From IMG/VR virus record IMGVR_UViG_3300046673_000068, positions 1 to 64,000 of that record: DNA of 64,000 nucleotides; one strand, given 5' to 3'. How positions within the stretch are numbered: the stretch's first letter is position 1; every line of letters starts with the position of its first letter. Source of the stretch: a virus. The notes under the pieces were generated by a model, which saw only the letters and a list, made by a program, of their open reading frames with translations, searched no databases and was not told where the DNA came from. Positions 7,062 to 63,248 of the stretch are shown piece by piece. The translations under genes and the position numbers were made by a program.

Positions 7062-7649
7062 ATGATTGAACTCAAAAACATCTACGGCGCTGTGATTTAT
7101 ACAGCTCCGAACATTACGACGGTAAAAGCAACTGTGGAAGAGGCAGTATCAAGCGGTGCCGACCTGAGCGGTGCCTACCTGCGCGGTGCCGACCTGCGCG
7201 ATGCCTACCTGCGCGGTGCCGACCTGCGCGGTGCCTACCTGCGCGGTGCCGACCTGCGCGATGCCTACCTGCGCGGTGCCGACCTGCGCGGTGCCGACCT
7301 GAGCGGTGCCGACCTGAGCGGTGCCGACCTGAGCGGTGCCTACCTGAGCGATGCCTACCTGCGCGGTGCCGACCTGCGCGATGGAAGAATCTCGGCAATG
7401 CGGTGCATGGCGTACTCAGCTTACCCTTACCAGATTCAGGCTGTACTTTTCCAAGACGGCTCCCGGTGGGTGCGTATGGGGTGCCTCTGGAAGTCACTCG
7501 AAGATTGGGAAAAGATAGGTATTCGCAAGAGCAACTTGTCTGAGTTCCCCGACGACGGCTCTGATCGCAGCGAAGAGCGTATTGCGGCATTTGAGTTTGC
7601 CAAAGCAGCCACGCTTCGTATGAAACTTCCAACGGAGATCGCAAAATGA
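7062..7649 (+). CDS. Pentapeptide-repeat protein, 195 aa
   Basis: ATG after GGAGG. Residues 33-107 are fifteen A(D/Y)LxG pentapeptide units, which fold as a right-handed quadrilateral beta helix. The C-terminal 85 residues (YPYQIQAVLFQDGSRWVRMG) are a separate conserved domain. Some pentapeptide proteins (Qnr, MfpA) mimic DNA and protect gyrase; whether this one does is unknown. Units are almost identical at the DNA level. Overlaps the next gene by ATGA. Confidence 0.88.
   Translation: MIELKNIYGAVIYTAPNITTVKATVEEAVSSGADLSGAYLRGADLRDAYLRGADLRGAYLRGADLRDAYLRGADLRGADLSGADLSGADLSGAYLSDAYLRGADLRDGRISAMRCMAYSAYPYQIQAVLFQDGSRWVRMGCLWKSLEDWEKIGIRKSNLSEFPDDGSDRSEERIAAFEFAKAATLRMKLPTEIAK
7158..7382 (+). 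repeat. 15-bp tandem repeat, 15 units
   Basis: Unit GCCGACCTGAGCGGT and close variants, in frame with the pentapeptide-repeat gene. Near identity implies recent slippage expansion. Confidence 0.9.
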
Positions 7650-25826: not shown

Positions 25827-26387
25827 ATGCCAACGTTCGTTATCAAAACCGACGATCCTTCCGTTGACTTCGCAATCGAAGCCGAAGAATTTAACCTGAC
25901 CCGGGACAACACCTACGCCTTCTACGACGAAGAATGTGACCTCGTGGCCGAGCTTAACGCTGTGCAGGTCCGGGCCATCATCCGGGAAGACCACCTGCTC
26001 ACGTCCGACTACGGGGACGAGGACGACGTGTGCGACGACTGCCGGACCGGTGAACTCCTGGACGACCCGGCCTTCTGCAACGCTGTTTTTGACCTCAGCG
26101 AGGGGTATCACGCCACGATTGCCGAGGACGAAGCACCAGCGGCCCCCCAAGTTTCCCCGGCGGACCCAAACTCGCCCCCAGTCTCCTACCCGGTCGAGTA
26201 CAGAAAGACACCAGTTGGCCCTTGTTGGGGGATCGTGAATGTGGAGCGAAATCACTTCGTCCCCTTCGGCTCCGAAGCAGGCGCGAGGGTCATGGTGGAA
26301 AGATACGCCGACCCTCAGAGCCCAGACGGATGGGCGGTTGAATCTCTCTCCAACTGCCCGTTAGTGGAGGTTCCGTCCAATGGCTAA
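25827..26387 (+). CDS. Acidic hypothetical protein, 186 aa
   Basis: ATG after AAAGGAG. MPTFVIKTDDPSVDFAIEAE, then CDDCRTG, a Pro-rich linker (about 105-125) and a C-terminal domain with GPCWGIVNVERNHFVPFGS. Overlaps ssb by 8 bases, suggesting co-expression with replication genes. Confidence 0.68.
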   Translation: MPTFVIKTDDPSVDFAIEAEEFNLTRDNTYAFYDEECDLVAELNAVQVRAIIREDHLLTSDYGDEDDVCDDCRTGELLDDPAFCNAVFDLSEGYHATIAEDEAPAAPQVSPADPNSPPVSYPVEYRKTPVGPCWGIVNVERNHFVPFGSEAGARVMVERYADPQSPDGWAVESLSNCPLVEVPSNG

Positions 26388-26832
26388 AGGATTCTCTTTT
26401 GCGCAAGTAGGCGGGGGTTTGGGGCGTGATCCTGATATTCGCTCTACCCCCAACGGAGTCAAAGTGGCCAATTTCAGCGTGGCCGTGGACAAGGGTTTCG
26501 GAGACAAGAAATCTACCCATTGGTTTAATGTGGTGGCTTTCAAGGACCTCGCAGAGTTCGCCCAAAAGTACCTCAAGAAGGGATCGACCGTGAATGTGAC
26601 GGGAGACCTCCAAACCAAGTCCTGGGTGGACAAGCAAACGGGGGCTAACCGAACAGCAACCGAAATCGTTGCCTTGCGGATTGACTTTGCCGACGGAGGC
26701 TCCAAGTCCGACTCCGGCCAACCGGCTCGAACGTTGGCTCCGGCGCAAACCAGGCAGCAAGCAGCCCCGGCCCCACGAGCAACAACCCCCGCAGCCGACG
26801 ACGATCCTTTCGGGGATAACGAACCGTTCTAG
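26380..26832 (+). CDS. ssb: Single-stranded DNA-binding protein, 150 aa
   Basis: OB-fold SSB: GGGLGRDPDIRSTPNGVKVA, STHWFNVVAFKDLAEFAQKY and GSTVNVTGDLQTKSW within residues 10-90. Disordered linker, then the acidic tip DDDPFGDNEPF that recruits partners in bacterial SSBs. Coats ssDNA for replication and RecT-mediated annealing. Confidence 0.95.
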   Translation: MAKGFSFAQVGGGLGRDPDIRSTPNGVKVANFSVAVDKGFGDKKSTHWFNVVAFKDLAEFAQKYLKKGSTVNVTGDLQTKSWVDKQTGANRTATEIVALRIDFADGGSKSDSGQPARTLAPAQTRQQAAPAPRATTPAADDDPFGDNEPF

Positions 26833-27810: not shown

Positions 27811-28842
27811 ATGGATACTGTCCGCACGAAAAAGAACGAGAAGAAAGACTCTCCTCCCCCCAATGAAGAGCAACTAGACGCGATCAACTTTGGCGAAGGG
27901 TACGCTTGTGTGGAAGCCGGACCAGGCTCTGGAAAAAGTTTCGTCCTGGTTCAACGCTTTGCCCGGTTGATCCGGGACGGAGTTTCTCCGGACGATACTT
28001 TGAGTTTGAGCTTCACCCGGACGGCAGCGAAGAACCTCCGGGACCGGGTCGAAGCCCAAGTAGGAAAACTAACCACAACACGCACAGCAGGCGCACAGAC
28101 CTTTCATGCTCTGGGGCTCGCTTTTGCTATGGAGGAACGAGATGCTTTTCCCTACGAGTTGGCCGAATTCCCCTTGGCGGGGGAGCCTGTCTCCGCAAAA
28201 TTGTCCGGAGACGCTGCCAGACGATACGAACTTGATCCCCGCGCTTTTCGGCCCTTGGTCAGCCTTTGGAAACGGAAACGGCTTCGTGCTCCTTCGCTCA
28301 TCCGAGATTTTGAAGATAAGGTGGACGCAAAGAGTCTGAGGATGGCCCTGGCCTACAAGGACTATGACAAGCGCATGAAAGCCGCTGGCGTTCTCGATTT
28401 TGATAGCTTGATTTTGGAAATGGTCGAAATCCTGGACAAGAATCCCGAAGTGAGAAAACGGTGGGTTCGAGACTGGCTTCAACTAGACGAGGCCCAGGAT
28501 ATGTCCAGAATCGAATGGGATTTAGCCAAGCTGATCTCTGGTAAGTCGGTGTGTGCGGTGGGCGACGTTTCGCAGGGTATCTACGGATTTCGAGGATCAG
28601 ATTCTCGCCTGTTCCTAGAAATGGAAAGTATGTTCCCGGGAACCGAAACCCTCTTCTTATCCGCTAATTTTCGCAGCAGCCCTGAAATCGTGAACTTTAT
28701 CCGGCCCATTGCAGCAACGCAAGACCTGGCCTCGAAGTTCCACACACAAAACCCCTCGGGGCCGGAGGTTTCTATACGGGGTTTCAACTCGACTGGGGAC
28801 GAAGCGGCTTGGGTTATTTCAGAGATAAAAGGAGAAGTATAA
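27811..28842 (+). CDS. UvrD/Rep-like helicase, N-terminal half, 343 aa
   Basis: Superfamily 1A helicase motifs I-IV: GPGSGKS (37-43), TLSLSFTRTAAKNLRDRV (Ia), LDEAQD (about 226-230), GDVSQGIYGFRG (about 251-262) and SANFRSSPEIV. It stops after EAAWVISEIKGEV, exactly where intact relatives continue toward DIAILxRTN. Motifs V and VI are encoded separately at 29387-30238, after an HNH insertion. The halves may assemble into an active enzyme or the function may be impaired. Confidence 0.9.
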   Translation: MDTVRTKKNEKKDSPPPNEEQLDAINFGEGYACVEAGPGSGKSFVLVQRFARLIRDGVSPDDTLSLSFTRTAAKNLRDRVEAQVGKLTTTRTAGAQTFHALGLAFAMEERDAFPYELAEFPLAGEPVSAKLSGDAARRYELDPRAFRPLVSLWKRKRLRAPSLIRDFEDKVDAKSLRMALAYKDYDKRMKAAGVLDFDSLILEMVEILDKNPEVRKRWVRDWLQLDEAQDMSRIEWDLAKLISGKSVCAVGDVSQGIYGFRGSDSRLFLEMESMFPGTETLFLSANFRSSPEIVNFIRPIAATQDLASKFHTQNPSGPEVSIRGFNSTGDEAAWVISEIKGEV

Positions 28843-29161
28843 GTGGCCCCAAAACGAATGGAAATGATAGGAAAGAAGTTTGGAAAACTTAACTTTCGAC
28901 ATCGAGCCGGAGGACATAAACATACCCGAACTATGCCCAATTTTAGGTGTCAGGCTAAAATCTAATGTTGGTGGCCACATGAAAACGAACAGTCCGTCAT
29001 TAGATAGAATTATTCCGGAATTGGGATATGTTCGAGGAAATATAGAGGTGATAAGCCGCCGAGCGAACACCATAAAAAATGACGGAACTGCTGAAGAGCA
29101 TCGGAAAATAGCAGACCATATCGACTCGTTCGTGGTAAAATGTATCAAGGAGGGGTTATGA
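28843..29161 (+). pseudogene. HNH endonuclease with a probable frameshift
   Basis: GTG at 28843, right after the helicase stop and with GGAG at 28831, opens MIGKKFGKLNF in one frame. From base 28898 the next frame reads DIEPEDINIPELCPILG, SPSLDRIIPELGYVRGN and VISRRANTIKND, the typical end of a small phage HNH nuclease. One extra base at 28897 would explain the break. Translation of the second part alone could start at TTG 28880. It sits between the two halves of a helicase gene. Confidence 0.62.
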
Positions 29162-29259
29162 ACACGGACACGATAATAGACCTGGCTCTGTGCGCTCTGA
29201 GCCTAGCCGTGCTTATCTGGTATTGGAAGCGCGGCGACTGGGAGGGCTGGGGGTGGTGA
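29158..29259 (+). CDS. Small membrane protein, 33 aa
   Basis: ATGA-coupled to the HNH frame, RBS AAGGAGG. MNTDTIIDLALCALSLAVLI is one membrane helix, followed by a Trp-rich tail. Confidence 0.52.
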   Translation: MNTDTIIDLALCALSLAVLIWYWKRGDWEGWGW

Positions 29260-29387
29260 TGAGAAAACTCTGGTACGTCCTTAAAAAACTGATAGATGGG
29301 GGATACGACCGACCCCAGCACCAGCCAGGCACCGACCCAAACTGCCCGTTTTGTCAAGAAATGAAGCGCACTAAGGAGTCCAGATAA
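29259..29387 (+). CDS. Small zinc-knuckle-like protein, 42 aa
   Basis: TGATG overlap with the previous gene. MRKLWYVLKKLIDGGYDRPQ then CPFC. Its TAA comes from a dyad repeat and overlaps the ATG of the helicase C-terminal half. Confidence 0.55.
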   Translation: MRKLWYVLKKLIDGGYDRPQHQPGTDPNCPFCQEMKRTKESR

Positions 29388-29392
29388 TGGAC
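29378..29392 (+). repeat. 15-bp dyad repeat GTCCAGATAATGGAC
   Basis: Supplies both the stop (TAA) of the 42-aa gene and the start (ATG) of the helicase C-terminal half. Confidence 0.92.
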
Positions 29393-30238
29393 AGTACGGC
29401 CATACTTTCGAGGACCAATCTCGGCCTCCGCCCCTTCGAGCAGGCGCTGACCGAGGCGGGGGTGCCCTATCACCTAGTTGGGAAGTCCGGTTTCTGGAGT
29501 CAGCCGGAGGTCCGCGTCGGCCTGGCCTTTCTCCAGGCCGCCGTCTACCCCTCGGACTACGCTCTCGGAACCTGCATAAGAAGTCCGTTTTGGATCGCCA
29601 AGTTTCTGCCCAAAGCTAGACTTATGGAGGCCCTGAAAAAGGAAAAGGACCTCAACAACGTTTCGTATTGGAACTCCTTGGTTGCCGCCCGAGGATTTTT
29701 AGTTGACGCAAAGAATCAAGAAGCACTGACCAACTTTACGTCCTTCATCCACTCGCTGAGTCGATACAAAAGCCTGGCCGCCGCTGATGCCTTCAAGCAA
29801 ATCCTGGGGGCCCTCCGAGCCGGGGACTACTATTCCGAAGAAGAGGCAAGCCCAGACAATGATCCTCTAGGAAATTTGGCAGAATTGAGCAAGCTCGCCT
29901 CCCGGTTTCAGACTATCAAGGAGTTTTTGGACTACTGCCGGAAAGTGACCGCCGCTTCTAAGAGCCGCAAGGGCGTTGCCTTGTCTACGGTGCACAGCTT
30001 CAAGGGGTCCGAGGCGGACGTAATTTATGTCGTTGGGGTGTCTGACGGAGTGCTCCCGCATTCCAAGGCGACTGATCTTCAAGAAGAGCGGAATATCTGG
30101 TTCACGGCTTGCTCGCGCCCCCGTCACCGGCTCGTGATAACGTACAGCGGGCCCCCCTCCCCCTTCCTAAAAGGGATGAAGTGTGTTATAATGGAACCTG
30201 AGAAGGAGCAAAAGGATGCAAACCAAACCCATGTTTAA
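29387..30238 (+). CDS. UvrD/Rep-like helicase, C-terminal half, 283 aa
   Basis: Begins MDSTAILSRTNLGLRPFEQA, the sequence that normally follows the point where the 27811 gene stops. Motif V is TVHSFKGSEADVIYVVGV and motif VI is EERNIWFTACSRPRHRL. The start codon is that of the dyad repeat, with AAGGAG just upstream. Only about 10 residues of the usual linker seem missing between the halves. Best read as one helicase split by a homing-gene insertion. Confidence 0.88.
   Translation: MDSTAILSRTNLGLRPFEQALTEAGVPYHLVGKSGFWSQPEVRVGLAFLQAAVYPSDYALGTCIRSPFWIAKFLPKARLMEALKKEKDLNNVSYWNSLVAARGFLVDAKNQEALTNFTSFIHSLSRYKSLAAADAFKQILGALRAGDYYSEEEASPDNDPLGNLAELSKLASRFQTIKEFLDYCRKVTAASKSRKGVALSTVHSFKGSEADVIYVVGVSDGVLPHSKATDLQEERNIWFTACSRPRHRLVITYSGPPSPFLKGMKCVIMEPEKEQKDANQTHV
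30164..30192 (+). promoter_or_regulatory. Weak promoter candidate
   Basis: TATAAT (30187-30192) within GTGTGTTATAATGG, with TTCCTA 17 bases upstream. Lies in the end of the helicase gene, 23 bases before the next start. Confidence 0.4.
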
Positions 30239-31731: not shown

Positions 31732-31934
31732 GCCTGTGCGCCTCGCATTGGAAACCAACCGGGGAATGCGATTGCCCTTTTACGGGCTTTTGTTGTGAAT
31801 GCGGGTCCCCTTGTAAGGACCACGATCTTGTTGGGAACGCTACAGAGCAGGACGGCCTGGGCGAGTGGCCAAAACATTGGTGTAACAACTGTATTAACAC
31901 GCACCTAGAAGAAGATGCAAGGAGTAACGCATGA
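31728..31934 (+). CDS. Cys-rich protein, 68 aa
   Basis: ATGA-coupled. Nine cysteines (CDCPFTGFCCECGSPC, CNNC) imply one or two zinc sites. ATGA-coupled to the nuclease gene. Role unknown. Confidence 0.65.
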   Translation: MSLCASHWKPTGECDCPFTGFCCECGSPCKDHDLVGNATEQDGLGEWPKHWCNNCINTHLEEDARSNA

Positions 31935-33118
31935 GTTTTCTGTACACCAGCGCCTCGGGGCGGGAAGTCGCCCACGGGTCTTCGTCGTCATTGGATCAGT
32001 TCCGGTTCTGCCGCCGCAAGTTCCGGCTGTCCCGCGTAGACGGGTGGAAGGAAAAGGCTAAGAAAGCCAGTTTGGAATTTGGAAAGTGCATCGAGGCCGC
32101 GATCCAGTTCTACTGCGACAACGGGAAGAAACCAGGAGAAGCTACTTCGGAATTCGAGCGCCTGTGGCTCAAGTGGTCCGATAACAAGGAACTGGTCTAC
32201 ACCGCCCAGGAGAACAACTGGTTCGATCTCTACACGATGGGCAAGGAGATGACTAAGCTCTTCGAGATTCTGCTCCCGACCCTGCCCATCAGGAATCCGA
32301 AGTGGCAGCTACAATTCTTGAAGAAGCTGTGGCCCGGGACCGACCTGGACGACCTGGAATTCATGGCATACATCGACTTGCTGTCTACCCTGGAAGACGG
32401 ATCACGCTTGGTGCTCGACATCAAAACCGCAAAATCTGCTTTGGAAGCAGACCCTAAGTTGTTGACTATGGACGGACAACTTCGAAAATATGCGTGGGTT
32501 ACAGGATGCCGGGACGTGGGATTCCTCAATTTCGTGAAGGCCGGGAATCCAAACGAGTTCCGCAAAGGAACGGTAGTAACTCTGCTTTCGGACGTTCGAG
32601 AACTTGGGTGGGACGCCGGACGACCTTTGGTAGTAGTAAAAACCGAGGAGATAACCGACCCCCTTGTCAACAGCAAGCTCGCTCTCGTCGTTGGGGTCGC
32701 CGAAGATGTCCGGATAATGGACGAAGCCTTGGAGCAGATAAAAGGAAAGGGAAGCACCGAAGCCAAATCCCAAGTGTTGGCGGACTACCTGTTGGAAGGA
32801 AAGTTGTGTAAAGTAACCCGCGAATCCGTGACCCGCGTAAAAATCCAACTGGTGAAAGGCACAATACCCGAAGAAGAAATGGCCGAGATCGGGCAGCAGA
32901 TTGGTACGGACATGATGGCAATCCGAGAAGCCTCTAAGTCCAATGCTTTCTTTATGGATGGCGGTACGAGATTTCCGAACGCAATCTGTGTATGGTGTTC
33001 CTTCAATTCTATCTGCCTTCGAGACAACAAGAGGCGCGATGAAACTTTAGTCAAGATCGGTCCCGCAGCAAAAGAGGATGACTGGCTTACCGAATTAGAA
33101 GCCGGGGAGGAAGAATAA
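31931..33118 (+). CDS. Cas4/RecB-type PD-(D/E)xK nuclease, 395 aa
   Basis: SSLDQFRFCRRKFRLS at the N-terminus, the catalytic LVLDIKTAKS (about 159-168), and Q in MDGQLRKYAW fit the Cas4/AddB nuclease fold. C27 with C352, C355 and C361 (CVWCSFNSIC) would hold a 4Fe-4S cluster. Probably the exonuclease that makes ssDNA for RecT. ATGA-coupled at its start; a TAATG overlap leads to the next gene. Contains a dyad repeat (VRIMD). Confidence 0.85.
   Translation: MSFLYTSASGREVAHGSSSSLDQFRFCRRKFRLSRVDGWKEKAKKASLEFGKCIEAAIQFYCDNGKKPGEATSEFERLWLKWSDNKELVYTAQENNWFDLYTMGKEMTKLFEILLPTLPIRNPKWQLQFLKKLWPGTDLDDLEFMAYIDLLSTLEDGSRLVLDIKTAKSALEADPKLLTMDGQLRKYAWVTGCRDVGFLNFVKAGNPNEFRKGTVVTLLSDVRELGWDAGRPLVVVKTEEITDPLVNSKLALVVGVAEDVRIMDEALEQIKGKGSTEAKSQVLADYLLEGKLCKVTRESVTRVKIQLVKGTIPEEEMAEIGQQIGTDMMAIREASKSNAFFMDGGTRFPNAICVWCSFNSICLRDNKRRDETLVKIGPAAKEDDWLTELEAGEEE
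32708..32722 (+). repeat. 15-bp dyad repeat in the nuclease gene
   Basis: GTCCGGATAATGGAC, read as VRIMD. Confidence 0.92.
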
Positions 33119-44795: not shown

Positions 44796-44969
44796 ATGAA
44801 ACTGCCTGACTCAGTGGTTGAAGGTTTGAGAAAGATAGCGGGCCGCCCCCTGTTGGACTACACCTTCGCCTTCGGGGAAGACCGCGACATCTACGAAGCG
44901 GGAGTCCTGGACGGGGGAGCAAGCTTGGCGCAGTATGTTCTGGACGGTCTTGAAAAGGAGTCCGAATAA
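44796..44969 (+). CDS. Small acidic protein, 57 aa
   Basis: ATG after AAGGAG. MKLPDSVVEGLRKIAGRPLL; the stop TAA lies in a dyad repeat and overlaps the next gene's ATG. Confidence 0.64.
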   Translation: MKLPDSVVEGLRKIAGRPLLDYTFAFGEDRDIYEAGVLDGGASLAQYVLDGLEKESE

Positions 44970-44974
44970 TGGAC
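44960..44974 (+). repeat. 15-bp dyad repeat acting as stop/start junction
   Basis: GTCCGAATAATGGAC; TAA ends one gene and ATG starts the next. Confidence 0.88.
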
Positions 44975-48815: not shown

Positions 48816-49142
48816 ATGGAGCACACTCGGGAATTTATAGCCGGATACCGGCAAGCGGTTGGAGAGGCGACAGAGCCTTTTCCACTGCTTGAAGTTCCGG
48901 GGAAGACCGTCAACAATTTGATGGAAGACCGGCGAAAGAAACTGCTCACCAAGAAGGTAACCCGGTGGCTGATCGTAATACCGGCTACCGAACAAGGGTG
49001 CGTGTCTGACCCGGCCAGGCAGTATGAATACTACTCGTCGGATCGACTTCTTTACGACTCCAAAGAATCCGCAGAGGCCGCTTCAGTCCGTTATGAAGAA
49101 ACCTTTGGCATATTCCCCGTCGAAATCGAAGTACCACTTTAG
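48816..49142 (+). CDS. Hypothetical protein, 108 aa
   Basis: ATG after AGGAG; an upstream ATG at 48804 is less well placed. MEHTREFIAGYRQAVGEATE, then KKVTRWLIVIPATEQGC. Last plus-strand gene; its TAG overlaps a dyad repeat. Confidence 0.66.
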   Translation: MEHTREFIAGYRQAVGEATEPFPLLEVPGKTVNNLMEDRRKKLLTKKVTRWLIVIPATEQGCVSDPARQYEYYSSDRLLYDSKESAEAASVRYEETFGIFPVEIEVPL

Positions 49143-49156
49143 TCCGGGTAATGGAC
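49142..49156 (+). repeat. 15-bp dyad repeat GTCCGGGTAATGGAC
   Basis: Perfect copy at the end of the plus-strand gene block, overlapping the stop codon. Confidence 0.92.
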
Positions 49157-49251
49157 AAGGTTCTCGAAGGCCGGTGTCGCATCCGCCATCAGTCGGAGCC
49201 GGTCTCATAAAGCAAGCCGCCTGTCTTGTGAGAAAAACAGGCACACAAAAA

Positions 49252-49272
49252 GGCCCTCCGTTTTGGAGGGCC
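49252..49272. terminator. Bidirectional terminator between convergent blocks
   Basis: GGCCCTCC (49252-49259) and GGAGGGCC (49265-49272) form an 8-bp stem with a 5-base loop. On the minus strand a TTTTTGTG tail follows, a good intrinsic terminator for the virion genes; on the plus strand the tail (TTAGTGTTT) is weaker. Confidence 0.85.
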
Positions 49273-49296
49273 TTAGTGTTTGTAGCGGGTTGTTAG

Positions 49297-49938
49297 TTAT
49301 TCTTCTAGTCTGAGCTTCTTCATTTCTTTCGGGTCCTTGTCTGGCATGTTTCCCTCCCCCTTGTATGAGGGAGTATACACCCTGTCCGGTGTTCCGGTAT
49401 TGGTCCAGGCGTGTGTTTGTCCCGCGTATTTATCTGCCGCATCTCCGCTAGAAAAGACTCCAAGATGTTCTTTGGTTTTGACGTAGTGTTTCTTGGCCTC
49501 CTCGTACAAAGCGTCGTTAGCCTCCTTGTCTTTTTCGTCCGGTTTCTTTCCGGAGGAGGTCAAGAACTTACCGTCGGCTATCTGCGGGATCAGGGCGTAC
49601 CTCGGGGCGTGGTCGTAATCTTCTTCCGGCCACAGTTCTCCCTTTTCATCGAGGGGGATGGTTGCTGAATAAATACTGCTATAGGAGCCATCCTCGTTCC
49701 GAATTCCAGGACGGTGGTTGACATCAATATTTCCGGACTGAACCATGCCGGGAACAGGCGTTCCTTGAAGCGGCCCCACGTCGTAAACAGGAGGGGGAAC
49801 CGGCTGCGGGTTTGGTTTGGTTGTTCCGGGGGTCGGGACTCCGGAGTCCATCACATACCCAGCCGGAAGAGCCGCGTCTAATACATACCCCGGGGGAGGG
49901 GTTGGTTGTCCGGATAATGGACTTGCTGGGCTACCCAT
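49297..49938 (-). CDS. Virion-associated protein, 213 aa
   Basis: Pro-rich N-terminus (about 1-70), then SGNIDVNHRPGIRNEDGSYS and KTKEHLGVFSSGDAADKYAG, a segment often seen in phage structural proteins and virion lysin fusions. Overlaps the end of the 3043-residue gene by 8 bases. Last gene of the minus-strand operon, followed by the terminator. Confidence 0.75.
   Translation of the reverse strand: MGSPASPLSGQPTPPPGYVLDAALPAGYVMDSGVPTPGTTKPNPQPVPPPVYDVGPLQGTPVPGMVQSGNIDVNHRPGIRNEDGSYSSIYSATIPLDEKGELWPEEDYDHAPRYALIPQIADGKFLTSSGKKPDEKDKEANDALYEEAKKHYVKTKEHLGVFSSGDAADKYAGQTHAWTNTGTPDRVYTPSYKGEGNMPDKDPKEMKKLRLEE
49908..49922 (+). repeat. 15-bp dyad repeat in a minus-strand gene
   Basis: GTCCGGATAATGGAC, read on the minus strand as SPLSGQ. 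Confidence 0.92.
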
Positions 49939-52900
49939 TTATAGGTTCTCCCGTTTGGCGATCAACCCAATTGTGCCCGTCATTCGAAGCGACCTGGTGT
50001 CCTGTTATCGGATGAGTTGCCGTGTGAAGATACTGTTGGACGCCCGCGTTAAGATGTGCTGCTTCTTGCTGAACCGCAGGAGGAATAACAGGAGCGGGTG
50101 CCGCCGATGCTTGCGGGATTCCCCCTGGGTGCATCATGTTCAGAATCCTCTGGAGCACCGGGTCCTTGGCTCTTTCAGAGGGAGTCATGTCCTTCATGGC
50201 CTTGGCTGTGTACCGTTTCATCACCGACTGAGTTAAGGGGATGAGCGCGGTTTTCTCGCTGTTGTTCATTGTATCGAACAGCTTGAAAAACTCAGCAGCG
50301 GGCAGCCTAGATGCTCTCGTGTACAACGAGGCCATCGTGGAGTCCATGCCTTTTGTCTTGGTCAGGTTGAGTTGGATTTTCTTCAGTTCGGACTCTTTGA
50401 GTTGGTCTGTGTTATAAGCCAACTTGACCAACTCCGGCCACGAAGTTTCCCCGGACCTTACCTGATCTTCCAGGTCCATGATTCTCCGGTGCCTGTCCAT
50501 TTGAGCCTTGTCTATCGGGCCGTCTTCGTTGTGATTTGCGGCAAGCTCGGCTGCCATCTTCTGTGCAGGAGTAGCGTACACTTGGGCGGTTCCGCCCCCC
50601 GCTTTCCAAACCTGGCCCACGGTTCCAACTTGGGGCCCGGTTCCGGTGACAGCCTGTCCGATAGCCTGTCCAGGGATAGGCATCATGTTGTGGAACACGT
50701 CAGCCCACAGGTCTTCCGGACCTAGCTTACGCCCGAAGGAGTCGCGCTGCGTCAGTAGTTCTTGTCCGGCATGAATTGTGGGCGACAACCGGCCCTTGAT
50801 GAAGCCCACAGGGTCTGTAGCAGCGTGAAGAAGGTCAGTCGGCAACGTCCTCATCCCGAAGATGATTTCCTTGCCTTCCTTGTTCTTGACAGCCAAGCCG
50901 AAGGGGGCTTCCAAGTGCGGACTTCCCGTGGACAAGGTGTTGAGGACTCTTGCGATTCCCCACATTCCCAGGGTCATCATCACGACCTGTTTGCGGCCTA
51001 TGTTACCTTCTTCTCGGTTGAAGAGTCGGGCCCCACTTCTCATTTCCGATTCTAACCAGTCCGGGGCCAGAAGCATTAAGCGGCCCCAGTCCTGCGTAGT
51101 TGTGGAGCGCCCCATCGCTCTCCAATTGATACCGCCAAAACTTTCGTTTGCGTGCAGAGCCGCAGCTTTGGCCACGCGGTCATTGGACCACTCTGGGTGA
51201 GACGCTCGGTACTGGTCAAACAAGTGCTCGCCCGCCGTCGCTTTCATGGCAGGAATGTAACGTTTGAACAAGAAGTCCTGATACCAGTTCATGGAGTTGG
51301 CAATTGTGTTTCCAATTCCTGGAATCCTGCGCAAGGCATCACCCCCCGTGGACAAGCCTTCGGACATCTGTTGTTGGCCCCGGAAGTCCGTTCCAGTGGT
51401 GTAGCCCTGGCGAACCATTGCCAGGAGCTTCGTTTCTGAATGTGGATTAGATGGGTCGATCTTAGCCCCATCCAAAAGGTCAGGTCCGTGGAGAGTAAAC
51501 GGGTTGATCCCAGTCATCACACCACGGAGCCCAATCTGGACCATGTGGAATGGAGACAGAGACAGCAGGACATGCTTAGCCGCAGACCCCGCGCCCAACA
51601 ACGCTTTGCCTATGGGGTTTTTGGCGATTCCAGACTCTTCCAAGCCCAGCCTGTTCTTCAGGTACTGAGCAAATTCGGGGTGGGCCTTGATGTCGGCATC
51701 AACTAGGATACCGTGCCCGGCGGAGTCGTTGGTCACAAAGTTCCAGCCGCGCATAGCGTTGTGATCCAGCGTGACGTAGTCCTGCGGGTCCCAGGCATAG
51801 ACGGGCTTCTGTGCGCCGTTGAACTCGCGCAGGCCCGAGTAGTCTTTGTTCGCCAGCATGGACTTCAGGTACATGAGGTCGGTCCGAAGTTTATTGTTTC
51901 CCATTTCGTCGTACTGTGCGTTCTTACTCAGAGCCTGCTTTTCCAGACGATCAATTGCCATCCCGATGTTGTCCGGATGAACGTGGGGCGTTATGTCCTT
52001 GATGGTGCCGTCGGCCAGGAAGCGGTCGAAGTACCCCGTCTTCTTCATTTCGTCAATGTTGCTCTGCGCGATGTTGATTTTCTGCACGCGGTCCGGGGAG
52101 ATGAATGTCTTGGGGTCTTCCCCGTCTTGACCAGTTACAACTCTGCCCGATCCCGCGAGAACCACCGCCGGTCGGCCATCGCTTCCCCGGGAGAAATCGT
52201 CTCTCAGGCTACGAATGAACTGCCGGTTGGCTGCGGCCTTGATGATTTCGGCTCTGCCCCTGGCCATGTTGTTCACTATGTCGAACTTCAACTGCTTGGG
52301 GGATTTCAACAGCCCGGTCAAGGTTGAGTCATATACGCGGCGGCGTGCCATCGTTACGTTGGTGGCAAACTTTCCGTTCTTGGCATCAGAGGATATAACT
52401 CGACCTTCCGGGTTGGAGTTATCCCATGTCCGCTGGAAGTAGTCGTCGATGTAGTGTTGCAATATGTCGTTTGTCGAGCCTATTTCGAAGCTGCGGTCGT
52501 GCTCGTTCCTGATGAAGTCCATTGCGGATTTCATCTGGGGGTCAGGCGCGGTGGTTGCCGCTTTCCTATGCACACTCATCACCAAGTCCCGGTATTCCTT
52601 GGGCTTGTCTTTGAAGACGTTATTCTGGATCATGTCGTCGATGTTCGGCGGGAGATGTCCATTATCCGGACTTTCTCTTGAGAACAGCGGCTGACCTTGA
52701 TGCAGGACAGACTCACGCATGGAATCTGTGATGGGGAAGTAGGGAACAGCAGAAGTTTTGACTTCCTTTTGGATATTTAACTTTCCGCCGATTTTTTCTG
52801 CGTAGGCTTCCGATCCAAAATCCCGTACAGCTTCTGCAAAAGGAATCCGGCTATAACGCACTTCATAAGCAACAGCCCGGGCTTGCCCCTCAAGTTGAGT

Positions 52901-55900
52901 TCCTTCTGCTTCCGAAGCTATTTTGTCTAGGTCCGCTGTCGATAGGGTCGGTCCCTCATATATTCTTGTTTTAGACCCGTCAGATACCTTGATCTTCGTC
53001 TCCCCAACCTTAGCCCCAAACTGTTTTCCAAGTTTGTTGGCAACCTGCGGGGTGATCTGATCGTAGTAGCTTTCGAATCCTTCCTTCCGGGGCATGCTCG
53101 CTCCGGTTGGCTCTGTCTGCATCCGATCCCAGAGTTTCTTGGTGACAGCGTCTACCTTCTCACGACCAGCAATATGCAGGACCCGGTGTACAATTGCTCT
53201 CAGGTCGGCTTGGGACTTTACTTGTCCTCCACTTTTGTTGAGCAATCCCCGGCGCGTAGCTTCGCCTTCTAGATCAACCCCTCCGGCATTTCCGCCGTGC
53301 TGATATGTTCCAGCAACCGTCCATTTTCCGTCTTCGGTCTTTTCCCAATCGAAGCGTTCCGACCCCCACCGGTTGAAGTGTTCAACTCCCGGGGTCCACG
53401 AGATTCCATCATATCCGTTTTCGGCGGCGTATCGGATCATTCTCTTGAAGAATAATCCGGTCCATTCGTCTGTCTTCTTGAAGGGGGCGTCGGGGACTCC
53501 AGAATGGACAGTCTCTTTGCTGATTTCGTTCAGACGAGCCTGTAGCTCCGGATGAACGTCTCCGGCGTCCGGTCTTGTTGAGTGGGTCCGGTCGTATTCT
53601 CGGGGGTCTAGTTCTCCCGTTTCCGGGTCTATCGCATGAACCTTGACACTCCAAACACGATCCCATCCCTTTCCGTTGGGGTCTGCGGGATGGAAAGAGA
53701 TTACCTTGTCTTTTCCTCCGTAGCTGTTTACAATATTTCCTGGCTTGAAGTAGTTCGCAAGTTCTTCGTCGGTTACCGGGTCCTTCAGTCTTTCGCGGAG
53801 ATCGGACGCTTCCTTACGGAGACTCTCAATTCTTGCTGGGTCGAGATTGTACCCCTGTGTCCTTCCTTTCTGGTGCCAATCAGATTGCAGTTCTTCCAGG
53901 TGCAGCAGCTTCTCGCCGTTGGGGCCTGTGCGGTCGTTGAAGCGGACATGGCCTACTACGTTGGGTTCGTCCCAGTGAGCGGAGCGGAAGTCCTCGTTAT
54001 AATCGAATACATTCTTCGATTGCCCGTAGTTTGGAAGCGTCATCAACAACTCTCGGTACGAACCTGGTTCTGCTCCGGGGAGGGTGTATGTGCCGAATTT
54101 GGCGGGGTCAAATTTTTCTCCGGCATCCCACCTGTTTACCGCACTATCAACGACCTCTCTTTGGTCTTCAGAAAGACCACCATAATCTCTTCCATAAAGC
54201 TGTCTGGAAATCCTATCCGGCGGGGGAGTGTTTTCCTGTTTCGTAACCTCTTGTACCTGCAAGTTATTCGCCGCCAGGTAGTCCTTGACTTCTTCCGGAC
54301 GCACGGGGGCGCTTCCCTTCTCGCGGAGGAAGTCAGAGAGACCTGTGTATTTTAGCTCGTCCGGTTTTACGCCGTTGTTCTCCAGCATTTTGAGAACGGT
54401 GTCGGCGGGCATGGGTCCTTGCATCCGGCTATCAACTAGCTGGTTGGACTTCAAGTACCAGACGGGAGCGCGGTTATCCTTCTCTTTGGAAAACAGTCCA
54501 TTATCCGGACCGAATTCTGTGTCAAATAATGAAGCTCCTGATTTCCGAGCAAGGTGTGAGGCTATCCGCGAGTCTCTGCGGGCGGCTTCGAGTCTACCAG
54601 CCGCGTTAAGAAGTTCAGGACTAGAGCCCGCAGCTTCTCCGGTGGAAGGTTTTCTTGGGACGTAGGTTTCGAGTTTTGTGTCGAGGGCATTGAGGTCTCC
54701 TCCAAGTTTCTTGATTACGCCCCTGATTTCGGGGTTGGTTTTGAGCATGTCCGCAAAGTCAGCAGAGTGTTGGGCCACAAGTTCGGGTGTTAGCAGTCCT
54801 TGCTTGATAATTTCTTGCGGGGGTATCCAGCGGTCGTTCCCCCAACCAGACAGTTCGGCCAGAGATTTGATGAAGCACCAGATTGCGGCCTGCGCCTGGC
54901 GAGGCTCGACGCCCTCCGCCTTGGCCGCTTCGCGGACCTTGGCAGACATGGCGTCATAAACTGCTGGTTTGTTAATCCGATTCGGGTCGTGATCTCCGAA
55001 GACCGCCATCCAGGTGTCGTTTGTGACCCGGCTTGAATCCTTGCCCAGGTTCTTTGTGAAAGAAGATACCTTGGGGCCGGATAGAGGCTCTCCCTGTAAG
55101 GCGTGAATAGCGTTGCCCATTCTTGCAGGCAGGTCTACGCCTTGTGTTTCTCCACGACCGGCGAGAACTCTGTAGAGAGAAGCGTTCTTGCTGGCGACCT
55201 TCCCGTCTTTCCAGGTTACGTCCTGGGGGCGGCCCGCCTTGTCCCACTTGGCCCAGAGGTTGAGGGCCATGCGCAGGTTGGCTTGAACCGGCTGAACCGG
55301 GGATAGAGCGGCGGTAAAGTTCAGGAACTTGTCTTTGTCCGCTTTCCCCAGCCACGGAATTCCAGAGTCGATCAGAGCGTCGAAGGCCCGGGTCGATCTT
55401 TCATACCACAACTGTCCGGCTTTGCCCGCACGAATAGCAGCCGTCCACTCTTCGTGGTCGGGCATGGAGTTGAAGGCGGCGGTGAGCAGGTTCTGCTTTT
55501 CGGGTGTGTCGTGCTTCTGAACTTCCTCTGGGGTAAGGTGGGACTTGATGTCTTCCCACTCTGCGGGTTTTTCTCGGGAAGCCAGTCCGGATAATGGACT
55601 GATTGGTTCTCCGCGAAGAGCAGCTTTTTGAACGGCTTCCCCGCCTTGGTATGAGTCTACCCGTACCCCTTGTCCGGGTTCGTAAGGTCCTTTGTACGTT
55701 GGGTCATACGCCATGAACACAACGTCGGGATGGCCACCGTTGTACTGCTTCATTTTGTCGTAGTTCCAACCTTCGGGGGCATATGCGTCATTCCACGGAA
55801 GACGAGCCACGACCTTCATTCCCTCCCGAGCGTTTATTGCCGGAAGGTAGGTATCGAATCCGTCGGACCGACGCCCTCCATTTTCAATAGCAACGCGCAT

Positions 55901-58900
55901 CAAATTGGCATTAGCTCTTGGGGTATCAGTAGGATGAGAGAACTTCGACACAATAAGGTCTCCATCCAGAGCGATTCCGGTCTTTCCGTCCGGGCTCATA
56001 AAGGTTTTCATTCCTTTATACTCTTCTGGAGAGTAGACAGAAAGCTGCTGATCCGCTCCGGAGGACTCGTGCGCTTTCTTGACTTGGGAAATAGCAGAGT
56101 GGAACTTCTCCGCCGACGTTGGCACTATGCCATAGTCACGGAAAACTTTGACAGGTTCGAAGGATTTGACTACGTTTTGGGCTCTGTACCCGGAGAAGCC
56201 TTTTTGCTGAAGCAGCTTTTCGAGGTTATATTCAATCGGATCGCCATTTTTGCGAGTTAATTTGCGGGCCTGGTCTACAAGACTGAGCGGGTCTTTCGCC
56301 CTGTCGTAGATTTTGTTGTAGTCAAGGTTCGCAAAATACTTCTTGGAGTTTCCCTGGACAGCGGGTTCTCTGTAGGATTCTTCTCCGAAGTACGTTCCTG
56401 GAACCTGTAAACGATCCCGTTCGGCCCCGCGCACACCTGTTCCTGCCAACTCCGGGTTGGTTTCCGTGAAGTCTGGTTTTCTGCTCCAATGGTAGACGCG
56501 GCGAAGGTCCTTGTTTTCGTCCAGTTCCCGGACGCGGGAAGCTAGACCTTGCTGTTTTCCTTTAGTAGGCTCAAATCGAACTTCAGCCTGAGTGCCCTCA
56601 GATTCTGCTGCTTTGGTAGCTTCTTCGTGGGTTGGGAAAGAATCTAGGAGATGGCCTTCCCCGTCGTAGACGTACCATTCTCCTTCAGCACCTTGGCCAG
56701 CCCCGCCTTCCCCTCCTTCTTCCAGGCGTCGTACACTTCCAGCGCCCGTTCCTTGCTCGGCCAACCCACTTGCTCTTGCTTCTGCTGCTTGTCTTTCGGC
56801 ATAAATGTCCTCCACGTGTTGTCTTGCAATTTCGTTGATGCGGGCAAATTTCTCCCGCGCTTGGGGTCCGTGCTTGGCTTCAAGTTCCTTGAAATACTCA
56901 TCTAGGAAATTGATTCTCTCTGTTTTTGATGCGCCCGTGTCCACGCCCGCCTGATATTTAGCAGCGGTCTCGGCCACACGAACAACCGGGTTTTGGTCAT
57001 AATCCAGCGAATCAAAATATGAATGAGTCACTGTTGGTATTATACCATGTAAACGGTCCCAGGGGGAACCCGGTTCCACTTTAATTTCTCCGCTTGGAAG
57101 CCTTGTGGCCCCGTCTAGGAGGTTGTATACCTCCCCGTTTTGGGAGAGCCATCTTTGCTCGGCGTGTTGAGCTTCTTCTTGTGCAACTAGAATTGAAAAC
57201 TCAGGATTCTCCCCCGGGGTTTTGAGGACAGATGTAGGTCCGGCGAGTTGACGGGCCTTGGAAATCAACTGTCCGATTGAACTCTCTGGATTGAAACGAC
57301 TTAGGAGGATGTCCGCTTCCCTCGGAGAGTAGTTTACGCCCGTGCCCGGAGCTTGAGCAATCGTTTGAAAGTCGCCGTAATCTTCTGGACTGAGCCAAAC
57401 AACAGGCCGACCATCTGAGCCTACACGCACTTCTCCCGAAGAGGTAGTAGCAACGGACTTGGTTCCTGCTCTCGGCGGGGCTTCGTTGTCGGCTAGAGGG
57501 GTTCCCAGCGGGGCCGGTATGGGCTGGTACTCTCCACCACCTTGGGCTTCAACCAAAACGTTATGTAGTACCCGCGCCTTTTCCGGGTCGGTTTCTGTCG
57601 CTATACGGGTTTGGCATTCGGCGAGGCGCTCGGTATTGAAGGCTTTATCCTCTTTGGACAAACCGAGAACTGGGTGTGCTTTTCGGAGACCTAGCAGGTC
57701 GAAGGCTGTGTTGTACTTGTTGACAGCGTCCTGCTCAGCGACCGCGTGGGCGGCCTCCCTGTCCTTGTTGACTCTCTCTATTGCCAACCAGCGGTCGGAC
57801 AGCCTGGGAACGTCTGTGGAGCCTAGCAGGGGGTTAAACAACTCGCCCGCCGAGCGCAAAGCGTGCGGGGCCCCCAAAGCTCCCATAGCCCCGGAGGCGA
57901 ACATTTCTGTTCCATATTCCCAAGCGTGATCGGCGTCCCCTTCTTTCAGGGCGTCGAAGAACCGGGGCGACATCTGAGCCGCTGTTTCCAACTGTTGGTA
58001 GGTGAATCCCCAGTTCATCACAGTGTTCGCCGTGTCGGCGGCCTTGGTCAGGGCCCCAAAAGACACATCGGGCGCTGCTTTGTGCAGAATCTGGAAGGCT
58101 CCTCTTTGGAGAAGGTTTCCTCCCAGAAGGTCCTTGGTCACGTCCAGTTTTTTATCGGACAGTATGGCAGTTGCTTTTTTCCAATTGTCTACGTTGTACC
58201 CGGCGTCACGAACCGCGTCAGCCAGGGGGAGGAAACCGGACTTGGCTTTGGCTACCGTATCGCCCGTATCCGACAGAGCCTTCAGTTCGTCGGTGGAAAA
58301 CCCGGGCATCTTTGTGTTCGCCGTGGCGATAGCAGACCTTTCCGCTTCGGAAAGTGTTCCTTCCTTTAGGGCAGTCCTCTGTGCTTCGCTCAAGCCTACT
58401 TCAGACAGGTTCTTCTGAAGTTCTTCCGAGGCTAGTTCTGCGTCCCTGTTGATGGGGAAGGTTAGAGCCCGGGCTCGTTCCAACAAACCCAGGTCGTGTC
58501 CGCCCGCTTTCAGGGCACCAGAGATGACCGGCTCAATATCGGGCATACTCTTGGCGGTCTTCAGCGCGATTTTTGACGCACTTATGGCGTCGGCGATCTG
58601 AGCGGCGGTAAATTCCCCAGACTCTTTGAGCGCAGTTTCGCCCGCTCCGGCGATAAATCCTCCGGAGCCGAAAGTTGCGGCAGCTAGAGCCAGCGAAAGT
58701 GGACTCGTGAGACCCGCCGCGATGTGCTCCACACCGCGCCCAAACCCGCCCATTCCCAAATCTTCGGGAAGACCAAAGACAGAGGAGTCGAGCAGGGGGG
58801 TGTTCGCCCAATCCCAAGCGCGAGAGTACCAGCTTTGACTTGGGTCTTGGTACAAGTGCTGAGGAGGAGTGGCGGGGCCAACAGATTGTTGTCCATTACC

Positions 58901-59062
58901 CGGACTAGAAGCGGAAGAACCCCCAAATAATAGGCCAAACGCAGAAGACCCAGAACCCCCAACAGCCGGGGCCGCTGCGCCAACGGCGGCCTCTCCTGTC
59001 GAAGGAGTCTGGGTTTCTTTGTTTTCCGAAGAGAAAAGCAGGGAGTAAGCTGAATCGGGCAT
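49931..59062 (-). CDS. Giant polyvalent internal virion protein, 3043 aa
   Basis: Very long protein with features of phage large polyvalent proteins, which are thought to be injected with the DNA. The N-terminal 140 residues are Gly/Ser-rich with a hydrophobic stretch. ILVAQEEAQHAEQRW (about 630) resembles a zincin site lacking its first His. VYHWSRKPDF to YFGEESY (about 857-890) resembles an ADP-ribosyltransferase-like module. LHLEELQSDWHQKGRTQGY (about 1720) and RMIRYAAENGYDGISWTPG (about 1875) are hallmarks of LPD domains. WGRLMLLAPDWLESEMRSGA (about 2660) marks a C-terminal LPD. Order in the operon parallels T7 gp16. RBS AGGACA. Confidence 0.88.
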   Translation of the reverse strand: MPDSAYSLLFSSENKETQTPSTGEAAVGAAAPAVGGSGSSAFGLLFGGSSASSPGNGQQSVGPATPPQHLYQDPSQSWYSRAWDWANTPLLDSSVFGLPEDLGMGGFGRGVEHIAAGLTSPLSLALAAATFGSGGFIAGAGETALKESGEFTAAQIADAISASKIALKTAKSMPDIEPVISGALKAGGHDLGLLERARALTFPINRDAELASEELQKNLSEVGLSEAQRTALKEGTLSEAERSAIATANTKMPGFSTDELKALSDTGDTVAKAKSGFLPLADAVRDAGYNVDNWKKATAILSDKKLDVTKDLLGGNLLQRGAFQILHKAAPDVSFGALTKAADTANTVMNWGFTYQQLETAAQMSPRFFDALKEGDADHAWEYGTEMFASGAMGALGAPHALRSAGELFNPLLGSTDVPRLSDRWLAIERVNKDREAAHAVAEQDAVNKYNTAFDLLGLRKAHPVLGLSKEDKAFNTERLAECQTRIATETDPEKARVLHNVLVEAQGGGEYQPIPAPLGTPLADNEAPPRAGTKSVATTSSGEVRVGSDGRPVVWLSPEDYGDFQTIAQAPGTGVNYSPREADILLSRFNPESSIGQLISKARQLAGPTSVLKTPGENPEFSILVAQEEAQHAEQRWLSQNGEVYNLLDGATRLPSGEIKVEPGSPWDRLHGIIPTVTHSYFDSLDYDQNPVVRVAETAAKYQAGVDTGASKTERINFLDEYFKELEAKHGPQAREKFARINEIARQHVEDIYAERQAAEARASGLAEQGTGAGSVRRLEEGGEGGAGQGAEGEWYVYDGEGHLLDSFPTHEEATKAAESEGTQAEVRFEPTKGKQQGLASRVRELDENKDLRRVYHWSRKPDFTETNPELAGTGVRGAERDRLQVPGTYFGEESYREPAVQGNSKKYFANLDYNKIYDRAKDPLSLVDQARKLTRKNGDPIEYNLEKLLQQKGFSGYRAQNVVKSFEPVKVFRDYGIVPTSAEKFHSAISQVKKAHESSGADQQLSVYSPEEYKGMKTFMSPDGKTGIALDGDLIVSKFSHPTDTPRANANLMRVAIENGGRRSDGFDTYLPAINAREGMKVVARLPWNDAYAPEGWNYDKMKQYNGGHPDVVFMAYDPTYKGPYEPGQGVRVDSYQGGEAVQKAALRGEPISPLSGLASREKPAEWEDIKSHLTPEEVQKHDTPEKQNLLTAAFNSMPDHEEWTAAIRAGKAGQLWYERSTRAFDALIDSGIPWLGKADKDKFLNFTAALSPVQPVQANLRMALNLWAKWDKAGRPQDVTWKDGKVASKNASLYRVLAGRGETQGVDLPARMGNAIHALQGEPLSGPKVSSFTKNLGKDSSRVTNDTWMAVFGDHDPNRINKPAVYDAMSAKVREAAKAEGVEPRQAQAAIWCFIKSLAELSGWGNDRWIPPQEIIKQGLLTPELVAQHSADFADMLKTNPEIRGVIKKLGGDLNALDTKLETYVPRKPSTGEAAGSSPELLNAAGRLEAARRDSRIASHLARKSGASLFDTEFGPDNGLFSKEKDNRAPVWYLKSNQLVDSRMQGPMPADTVLKMLENNGVKPDELKYTGLSDFLREKGSAPVRPEEVKDYLAANNLQVQEVTKQENTPPPDRISRQLYGRDYGGLSEDQREVVDSAVNRWDAGEKFDPAKFGTYTLPGAEPGSYRELLMTLPNYGQSKNVFDYNEDFRSAHWDEPNVVGHVRFNDRTGPNGEKLLHLEELQSDWHQKGRTQGYNLDPARIESLRKEASDLRERLKDPVTDEELANYFKPGNIVNSYGGKDKVISFHPADPNGKGWDRVWSVKVHAIDPETGELDPREYDRTHSTRPDAGDVHPELQARLNEISKETVHSGVPDAPFKKTDEWTGLFFKRMIRYAAENGYDGISWTPGVEHFNRWGSERFDWEKTEDGKWTVAGTYQHGGNAGGVDLEGEATRRGLLNKSGGQVKSQADLRAIVHRVLHIAGREKVDAVTKKLWDRMQTEPTGASMPRKEGFESYYDQITPQVANKLGKQFGAKVGETKIKVSDGSKTRIYEGPTLSTADLDKIASEAEGTQLEGQARAVAYEVRYSRIPFAEAVRDFGSEAYAEKIGGKLNIQKEVKTSAVPYFPITDSMRESVLHQGQPLFSRESPDNGHLPPNIDDMIQNNVFKDKPKEYRDLVMSVHRKAATTAPDPQMKSAMDFIRNEHDRSFEIGSTNDILQHYIDDYFQRTWDNSNPEGRVISSDAKNGKFATNVTMARRRVYDSTLTGLLKSPKQLKFDIVNNMARGRAEIIKAAANRQFIRSLRDDFSRGSDGRPAVVLAGSGRVVTGQDGEDPKTFISPDRVQKINIAQSNIDEMKKTGYFDRFLADGTIKDITPHVHPDNIGMAIDRLEKQALSKNAQYDEMGNNKLRTDLMYLKSMLANKDYSGLREFNGAQKPVYAWDPQDYVTLDHNAMRGWNFVTNDSAGHGILVDADIKAHPEFAQYLKNRLGLEESGIAKNPIGKALLGAGSAAKHVLLSLSPFHMVQIGLRGVMTGINPFTLHGPDLLDGAKIDPSNPHSETKLLAMVRQGYTTGTDFRGQQQMSEGLSTGGDALRRIPGIGNTIANSMNWYQDFLFKRYIPAMKATAGEHLFDQYRASHPEWSNDRVAKAAALHANESFGGINWRAMGRSTTTQDWGRLMLLAPDWLESEMRSGARLFNREEGNIGRKQVVMMTLGMWGIARVLNTLSTGSPHLEAPFGLAVKNKEGKEIIFGMRTLPTDLLHAATDPVGFIKGRLSPTIHAGQELLTQRDSFGRKLGPEDLWADVFHNMMPIPGQAIGQAVTGTGPQVGTVGQVWKAGGGTAQVYATPAQKMAAELAANHNEDGPIDKAQMDRHRRIMDLEDQVRSGETSWPELVKLAYNTDQLKESELKKIQLNLTKTKGMDSTMASLYTRASRLPAAEFFKLFDTMNNSEKTALIPLTQSVMKRYTAKAMKDMTPSERAKDPVLQRILNMMHPGGIPQASAAPAPVIPPAVQQEAAHLNAGVQQYLHTATHPITGHQVASNDGHNWVDRQTGEPING
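52657..52671 (-). repeat. 15-bp dyad repeat in the giant gene
   Basis: GTCCATTATCCGGAC; on the minus strand it reads SPDNGH. Confidence 0.92.
54496..54510 (-). repeat. 15-bp dyad repeat in the giant gene
   Basis: GTCCATTATCCGGAC; on the minus strand it reads GPDNGL. Confidence 0.92.
55585..55599 (+). repeat. 15-bp dyad repeat in the giant gene
   Basis: GTCCGGATAATGGAC; on the minus strand it reads SPLSGL, so this copy is inverted relative to the other three in the gene. Confidence 0.92.
58891..58905 (-). repeat. 15-bp dyad repeat in the giant gene
   Basis: GTCCATTACCCGGAC; on the minus strand it reads SPGNGQ. Confidence 0.92.
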
Positions 59063-59074
59063 GTTGTCCTATAT

Positions 59075-60895: not shown

Positions 60896-61290
60896 TATTT
60901 GTTCTCCAAGAAGTAGCTAAGTGGTGTGGTCCGGGAAATGGACGTGTCTTTCAGGGCCCTCTTCAGGAACTTCAAAATCTGATCTTGTCCAAGTTTTTCA
61001 TTGAATCCCAAGACCCTCATAAGGTTTTCGAGTTTGTCGTCCTTTTTAATACCGGCGCGAGACTCCCCTTTGATCTTGATCTCCAGGTCAAAGCAAGAAG
61101 CACGATACCCGGCGAGCCACGACGTAAACAACCTCATGCCTTTTTCATCTATCGAGTTTTTGCCCGGGCGACTGAAGTTCAAGACTCCAATTGGATTACG
61201 AGCCTGGTAGAGGTCTCCATCGGGGTTTGTGGTTGCCCCTTTGAGGTGCGCCAAAGCATCAACTAGGGCTTCTACGCGATTAACGGACAT
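60895..61290 (-). CDS. Hypothetical virion-operon protein, 131 aa
   Basis: MSVNRVEALVDALAHLKGAT and GMRLFTSWLAGYRASCFDLE; helical. Contains a dyad-repeat variant near its end (TSISRTT). RBS AGAAGG. No known family. Confidence 0.66.
   Translation of the reverse strand: MSVNRVEALVDALAHLKGATTNPDGDLYQARNPIGVLNFSRPGKNSIDEKGMRLFTSWLAGYRASCFDLEIKIKGESRAGIKKDDKLENLMRVLGFNEKLGQDQILKFLKRALKDTSISRTTPLSYFLENK
60929..60943 (+). repeat. 15-bp dyad repeat in a minus-strand gene, one mismatch
   Basis: GTCCGGGAAATGGAC; on the minus strand it reads SISRT. Confidence 0.8.
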
Positions 61291-61344
61291 GGCGTACCTT
61301 CTCTCTGTGCTTTTGCTTTTGCGAGTAAGTATTCAAACATCAGG

Positions 61345-62469: not shown

Positions 62470-62483
62470 TGTTTCTCCTTTAA

Positions 62484-63239: not shown

Positions 63240-63248
63240 TATCCGGAC
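63234..63248 (-). repeat. 15-bp dyad repeat at a minus-strand gene start
   Basis: GTCCATTATCCGGAC; on the minus strand its ATG starts the 122-aa gene. Confidence 0.92.

Follow-up and report, generated by a model that had tools for sequence, protein, structure and literature searches.

The locus examined here raises the question of whether two neighbouring reading frames, each holding part of a UvrD-type helicase, encode one enzyme made as two chains, a gene in decay or a gene interrupted by an element that is spliced out, and of how the division came about. The window, as the whole analysed stretch of DNA is called here, comprises 64,000 nucleotides, positions 1 to 64,000 of the uncultured virus record IMGVR_UViG_3300046673_000068 (68 kb). 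The answer reached, which is very likely correct, is that one UvrD/PcrA-type helicase is encoded as two polypeptides expected to assemble without splicing, with a split that most likely arose once and a permissive gap between the two genes.

Two parts of one helicase

The features of the locus are given in Table 1. Sequence identical to it was carried by three other contigs, one of 97 kb, which argues against an assembly error. The flanking genes for a single-strand DNA binding protein and a PD-(D/E)XK nuclease suggest that the helicase may act in phage DNA replication or recombination. The flank 3' of the C-terminal part also varies in content, with an endonuclease VII-type gene directly after it in L007 (5821-6630; PF02945, 5e-23) and an unrelated gene there in the window. 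Elsewhere in the window, approximately 230 bases (7152-7380) have an isolated similarity of 87-89% identity to a pentapeptide-repeat gene of Rheinheimera Barba phages, and the AT skew changes sign near 49 kb, suggesting a switch of gene orientation there (about 49000-64000).

Table 1. Coordinates of the helicase parts, the genes between them and the flanking genes in the window.
Feature	Position	Strand	Evidence
Single-strand DNA binding protein gene, upstream of helicase	26380..26832	+	PF00436 1.3e-26
Helicase N-terminal part, 343 aa	27811..28842	+	Pfam/PHROG, AlphaFold2
3' end of N-terminal part, with AAAGGAG in the codons following IK as a Shine-Dalgarno-like site of the next gene	28824..28842	+	sequence, relatives
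HNH 5' remnant with GTG as start codon (APKRMEMIGKKFGKL), in a different frame from the remainder	28843..28896	+	tblastn with intact L012 HNH, from residue 8 on
HNH 3' remnant (homing-type endonuclease)	28880..29161	+	residues 164-245 of intact 252-aa protein
Small gene, 33 aa, family common to L018 and L022 gaps	29158..29259	+	ORF, gap comparison
Small gene, 42 aa, MRKLWYVLKK...KESR, also in L007 gap (91% DNA identity)	29259..29387	+	
Linker AAGGAGTCCAGATAATGGAC: last small-gene codons, Shine-Dalgarno site, stop overlapping start of C-terminal part	29373..29392	+	enriched in gaps; 14 gap junctions
Helicase C-terminal part, 283 aa	29387..30238	+	Pfam UvrD_C, AlphaFold2
RecB/Cas4-like PD-(D/E)XK nuclease gene, downstream of helicase	31931..33118	+	PF12705 9.6e-11

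The N part matched the UvrD-helicase family of Pfam (E 1.8e-46) and the C part matched profile positions 72-348 of UvrD_C (E 3.7e-20), while both matched a single PHROG helicase family over complementary ranges (143-448 and 481-671 respectively). Motif alignment located motifs Q, I, Ia, II, III and IV in the N part and motifs IVa (ILSRTN), V and VI in the C part, and both the reading frames and the division of motifs I-IV and V-VI between them were as given in a preliminary description made from the letters alone. The UvrD and UvrD_C domains and motifs I-VI typical of SF1A helicases of the UvrD/PcrA/Rep type are present in the two parts jointly and in neither singly.

Structures were predicted with AlphaFold2 for each part singly, using alignments of 21 (N) and 23 (C) relatives. 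The N part model (mean pLDDT 92) aligned to PcrA 10-344 (1qhg) with a Z score of 31.0 and an rmsd of 2.3 over 316 residues, and the C part model (mean pLDDT 90) aligned to PcrA 351-651 with a Z score of 18.3 and an rmsd of 2.9 over 247 residues. The predicted models tile PcrA end to end and jointly give the 1A-1B-2A-2B fold, domains 1A, 1B and the start of 2A lying in the N part and the rest of 2A together with 2B in the C part. The two reading frames are two parts of one UvrD/PcrA-type helicase. PcrA is itself present in the PDB as several separate chains that keep the fold (1qhh chains A-D, 2pjr chains A/B), although those cuts lie at other positions than the phage break and are not genetic.

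The break falls in a loop of domain 2A, where the N part model ends in a helix and the C part begins just ahead of the ILSRTN strand. The N part of the window stops 3 residues past the conserved IK and the C part begins 3 residues before the conserved strand, giving K-GEV-stop / M-DSTAILSRTN where uncut relatives have K-VTVS-DTAILARTN; with the preceding residues, EAKDVASK-VTVS-DTAILARTN of the uncut L060 aligns with EAAWVISEIK-GEV-stop / M-DSTAILSRTN. The preliminary description had correctly placed the break just before the AILxRTN block, but the approximately 10 residues it considered missing are absent from the uncut phage relatives as well, in which the loop is equally short; they are absent only in comparison with cellular PcrA/UvrD, because the PcrA loop is longer. 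Aligned with the phage family, with the uncut 594-aa L060 as reference, no residues are missing at the break. The C part does start at the ATG noted earlier, but the dyad repeat described there consists of no more than ATGG..CCAT, which relatives do not retain. What is conserved at this start is AAGGAGTCC..TAATGGAC, where the ATG shares bases with the stop codon of the gene before it.

Split and uncut relatives

Alignment with intact phage relatives, the comparison called for in the preliminary description, placed the same break in 14 phage lineages and left eight relatives uncut. Besides the window, the split lineages were 13 found by viral contig scans (L007, L010, L012 (=L011), L018, L019, L020, L022, L025, L026, L027, L028, L050 and L051), to which L016 is additional, its contig carrying the C part only. 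The uncut related helicases were L060, L029, L040, L064, L132, L133, L135 and L137. Identities across the split lineages were 49-78% for the N parts and 41-89% for the C parts, and both parts were open in each of the 14. A gene that is uncut in relatives is thus present here as two open parts, as in split genes of the Aeh1 nrdA type. Relatives in an annotated phage collection were only about 24-32% identical, and a genome contig scan returned only distant uncut helicases and no split ones. The closest uncut relative, L060 (4498-6279), has a degenerate Walker A motif, AGPGGSKS vs GPGSGKS. A further uncut UvrD relative of 345 aa in L041 (3941-4978) has N and C motifs, apparently without most of domains 1B and 2B, and resembles a miniature helicase.

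The split proteins formed one clade against the uncut relatives in maximum-likelihood trees, with support of 95/96 for the N parts and 77/72 for the C parts. The split most likely goes back to one event in the ancestor of the phage group and has since been retained, a single origin being well supported in the N tree only. No split lineage has lost any SF1 motif on either side of the break. The dN/dS was 0.08-0.21 for the N parts in the least saturated pairs, and 0.11 (L026/L027) and 0.30 (L010/L016) for the C parts in the two closest pairs; these values are rough, since synonymous sites were nearly saturated (pS about 0.8), with nonsynonymous differences of about 0.3 per site. The retained motifs and low dN/dS indicate that both parts were maintained long after the split, and sequence comparison shows purifying selection on each of them.

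These results bear on the proposal that the halves no longer work together, either because one or both are decaying or because they have taken on separate functions, which is improbable. Decay is at odds with the motifs kept on both sides, the open frames in every lineage and the purifying selection, and no compensating helicase was found in the records searched. Each of 12 split records searched (up to 110 kb and possibly incomplete genomes) contained just one locus of each kind, UvrD N and UvrD C, and no second UvrD helicase; a second intact helicase elsewhere, which the preliminary description had named as grounds for abandoning the split, was likewise absent from the available sequence of the window's phage (97-kb contig). 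Separate functions would be compatible with the different histories of the N and C parts of L026, and assembly of the halves is an inference, but the ATPase site is divided, with motifs I and II in the N part and the motif VI arginine in the C part, and is complete in neither.

Removal of the insert at the RNA or protein level, as an intron or intein that leaves the helicase as one chain, was also considered. Group I introns and inteins often host HNH genes, and an intein is annotated in a UvrD-like helicase of SPO1-like phages. A permissive Rfam search of positions 28400-29800 of the window gave no intron match, and no intron match reached the gathering score in 11 relatives. Group I and group II introns were rejected as candidates on the absence from the insert of the conserved catalytic RNA by Rfam. 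The HNH reading frame of L012 abuts both helicase parts, leaving no room for an intron core, and there the halves and the HNH gene occupy three reading frames. Inteins and split inteins were rejected on these differing frames and on the lack of intein extensions at either end of the break. The content of the gap is not conserved, and the C part is provided with a ribosome site and start of its own. Taken with the points in its favour, splicing of either kind is extremely unlikely. Dassa et al. (2009), a study cited in PMC3653736, reportedly described fractured genes with split inteins in environmental phages, broken around a homing nuclease gene; unlike those genes, the helicase has no intein sequence at either end, and hence no protein splicing would occur.

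The preferred reading remains that of a helicase in two subunits, as the preliminary description had suggested, in which two separate and closely linked genes would give two chains and one working motor without splicing. With the break before the ILSRTN strand, neither part alone has the full set of ATPase and DNA-binding motifs. The supply of the two chains may be kept balanced by translation restarting along the linked genes, and the two-part state may persist through gap genes that each bring or recreate a ribosome site and a stop/start for the next gene.

Genes and linkers in the gap

The 544 bases between the N and C parts of the window hold an HNH relic and two small genes, in agreement with the preliminary account of the insert, the HNH gene being frameshifted and internally deleted and the small reading frames having ribosome sites. 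The 3' remnant matched phrog_3322 over positions 66-149 of 162 (E 2.5e-25) and was 65% identical to the L012 HNH protein. A full-length gene of this type, with N-terminal zinc-ribbon-like repeats and an HNH domain, is intact in L012 and not in the window, where about residues 21-163 (approximately 140 codons) have been lost between the two pieces by an internal deletion. The intact 252-aa gene of L012 fills the break exactly and overlaps the helicase parts at both ends by GTGA. The L007 gap retains the HNH start and about residues 219-250. By sequence, the window and L007 show one kind of HNH gene, in one place, in two different states of decay; in the window a once-intact gene has decayed, with the two small genes following it.

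Other lineages carry other genes at this position. The L022 gap contains a GIY-YIG nuclease gene and that of L027 an HNH gene unrelated to the L012 type, while L019 is split without any insert and eight gaps (L010, L018, L020, L025, L026, L028, L050 and L051) hold small genes only. A homing nuclease gene is accordingly intact in L012, L022 and L027, a relic in the window and L007, and absent in nine lineages. A rough gene call over the 14 gaps gave 55 reading frames in 33 families, 11 of them common to several lineages, with a few calls being wrong-frame pieces of nuclease genes. Compared across lineages, the gap is a permissive site that has gained and lost homing endonuclease genes and small genes, and it behaves like a landing site for the latter. 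One gap gene of L028 (3610-4026), whose 3' end overlaps the C part, has by eye a CSAGLLRSP motif like that of low-molecular-weight protein tyrosine phosphatases.

The small genes are joined by the recurring linker AAGGAGTCC..TAATGGAC, which provides a ribosome site and stop/start, and many of them end with it as K-E-S-(R/E/S). The density of AAGGAGTCC was 0.88 per kb in the gaps vs 0.018 per kb in the flanks, an enrichment of about 50-fold (p = 3e-12, overstated as the loci are related). Similar linkers were present at a few other gene junctions, for example at 44956 in the window, where two small genes a long way from the helicase (44901-44973) are connected by this linker (AAGGAGTCCGAATAATGGAC). 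From its sequence the linker appears to be a general gene-joining element in the window's phage, though rare outside the helicase gap.

The halves of the helicase have also been exchanged. L026 combines an N part of the L019 type with a C part that shares 89% identity with the L027 one. The N tree and the C tree reject one another's groupings (AU p 3e-5 and 2e-4), and the breakpoint falls within the last approximately 20 codons of the N part; L026 is the sole solid chimera among the lineages compared. Identities of N and C parts were not significantly correlated across 13 lineages (r = 0.14, p = 0.20). Correlations within the halves were also weak (N1-N2 0.36, C1-C2 0.51), with -0.08 across the gap (N2-C1), which points to recombination in general and to no proven hot spot at the gap.

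The cassette pattern, an array of small genes with the start ATGGA(C) and the end codons AAG-GAG-TCC-(AGA/GAA/AGT)-TAA, may be read further. Tentatively, the break would be a fixed landing site at which cassettes come and go, homing nucleases invade, halves are swapped between phages and a neutral ratchet locks in the two-subunit helicase, the approximately 20-bp linker serving at once as C-terminal coding sequence, Shine-Dalgarno site, stop/start and recombination homology; this proposal is speculative as a whole.

Origin of the split and known split genes

The split had initially been ascribed to insertion of an HNH gene. A decayed HNH gene does lie in the break, but the lineages that are split without an insert, with other nucleases or with small genes only leave this cause only partly supported. 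Creation of the split by an HNH homing endonuclease in an ancestor, followed by its loss, decay or replacement, is possible but rather doubtful. The exact fit of the L012 gene with its GTGA overlaps, the different internal deletions in the window and L007, where the two ends of one kind of HNH gene survive, and precedents such as mobE in nrdA of Aeh1 favour such an origin. Against it, L019 has no insert, although by its N part it falls in the sister lineage of the remaining split ones, most gaps have no HNH gene or an unrelated nuclease, and a homing gene may invade a gene that is already split, as discussed for gene 43 (PMC2988022).

A stop/start like that of L019 may instead have come first, giving a tolerated two-gene operon whose junction then became a landing site for homing and small genes, and this order has about an even chance of being correct. 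In L019 the junction consists of an entire linker, ATCAAGGAGTCCATTTAATGGAC, and nothing is inserted; the stop codon of the N part overlaps the C start (AAGGAGTCCATTTAATGGAC). The N parts of L019 and L026 are sister to the rest of the split clade, and AAGGAG in the IKE codons is absent from the uncut L060, L029 and L040. The junction may however be derived, by linker-linker recombination that deleted an array, and it fits both origins because recombination between two linkers would also yield it. The tree fits either order, homing gene first or simple stop/start first, and cannot tell between them. A review of T4-like phages describes the same ambiguity of order for split gene 43 (PMC2988022).

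The closest precedent is nrdA of the Aeromonas phage Aeh1, which is split by insertion of the HNH gene mobE into NrdA-a and NrdA-b and gives an active enzyme (PMC2988022, PMC3653736). Both are phage DNA-metabolism genes in two open genes around an HNH homing gene with no intron. The Aeh1 parts reassemble, and by this analogy and the conservation of their sequences the helicase pieces very probably reassemble into a working enzyme too. The present gene differs from Aeh1 nrdA in encoding an SF1A helicase, whose activity is predicted; most lineages have a decayed homing gene or none, and the gap also takes small genes and other kinds of nuclease. The DNA polymerase parts 43A and 43B of phage 25 co-purify and are active (PMC2988022). 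As in 43A/43B of Aeromonas phages 25 and 44RR, the split is found in related phages whether or not the gap contains a homing gene, and there too the homing gene may have invaded an already split gene; the enzyme differs, and the 44RR gap is an untranslated spacer whereas the helicase gap holds a changing set of genes (PMC2988022).

The open-access literature searched yielded no previous description of a phage UvrD helicase in split form, which does not exclude one. Split phage enzymes that reassemble were already known; what this locus adds is a helicase as the split enzyme, a split that persists across a clade whether or not a homing gene is present, and a gap whose genes can be exchanged. 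Split phage enzymes have mostly been described as isolated cases around one homing gene, while this split can be traced through a clade as a series of uncut outgroups and of split genes whose gap is empty or holds an intact homing gene, a decaying one or other genes. With such a series, the way in which gene fission becomes permanent can be tested directly. It also offers a natural place to divide a PcrA-type motor, together with 14 matching pairs of subunits.
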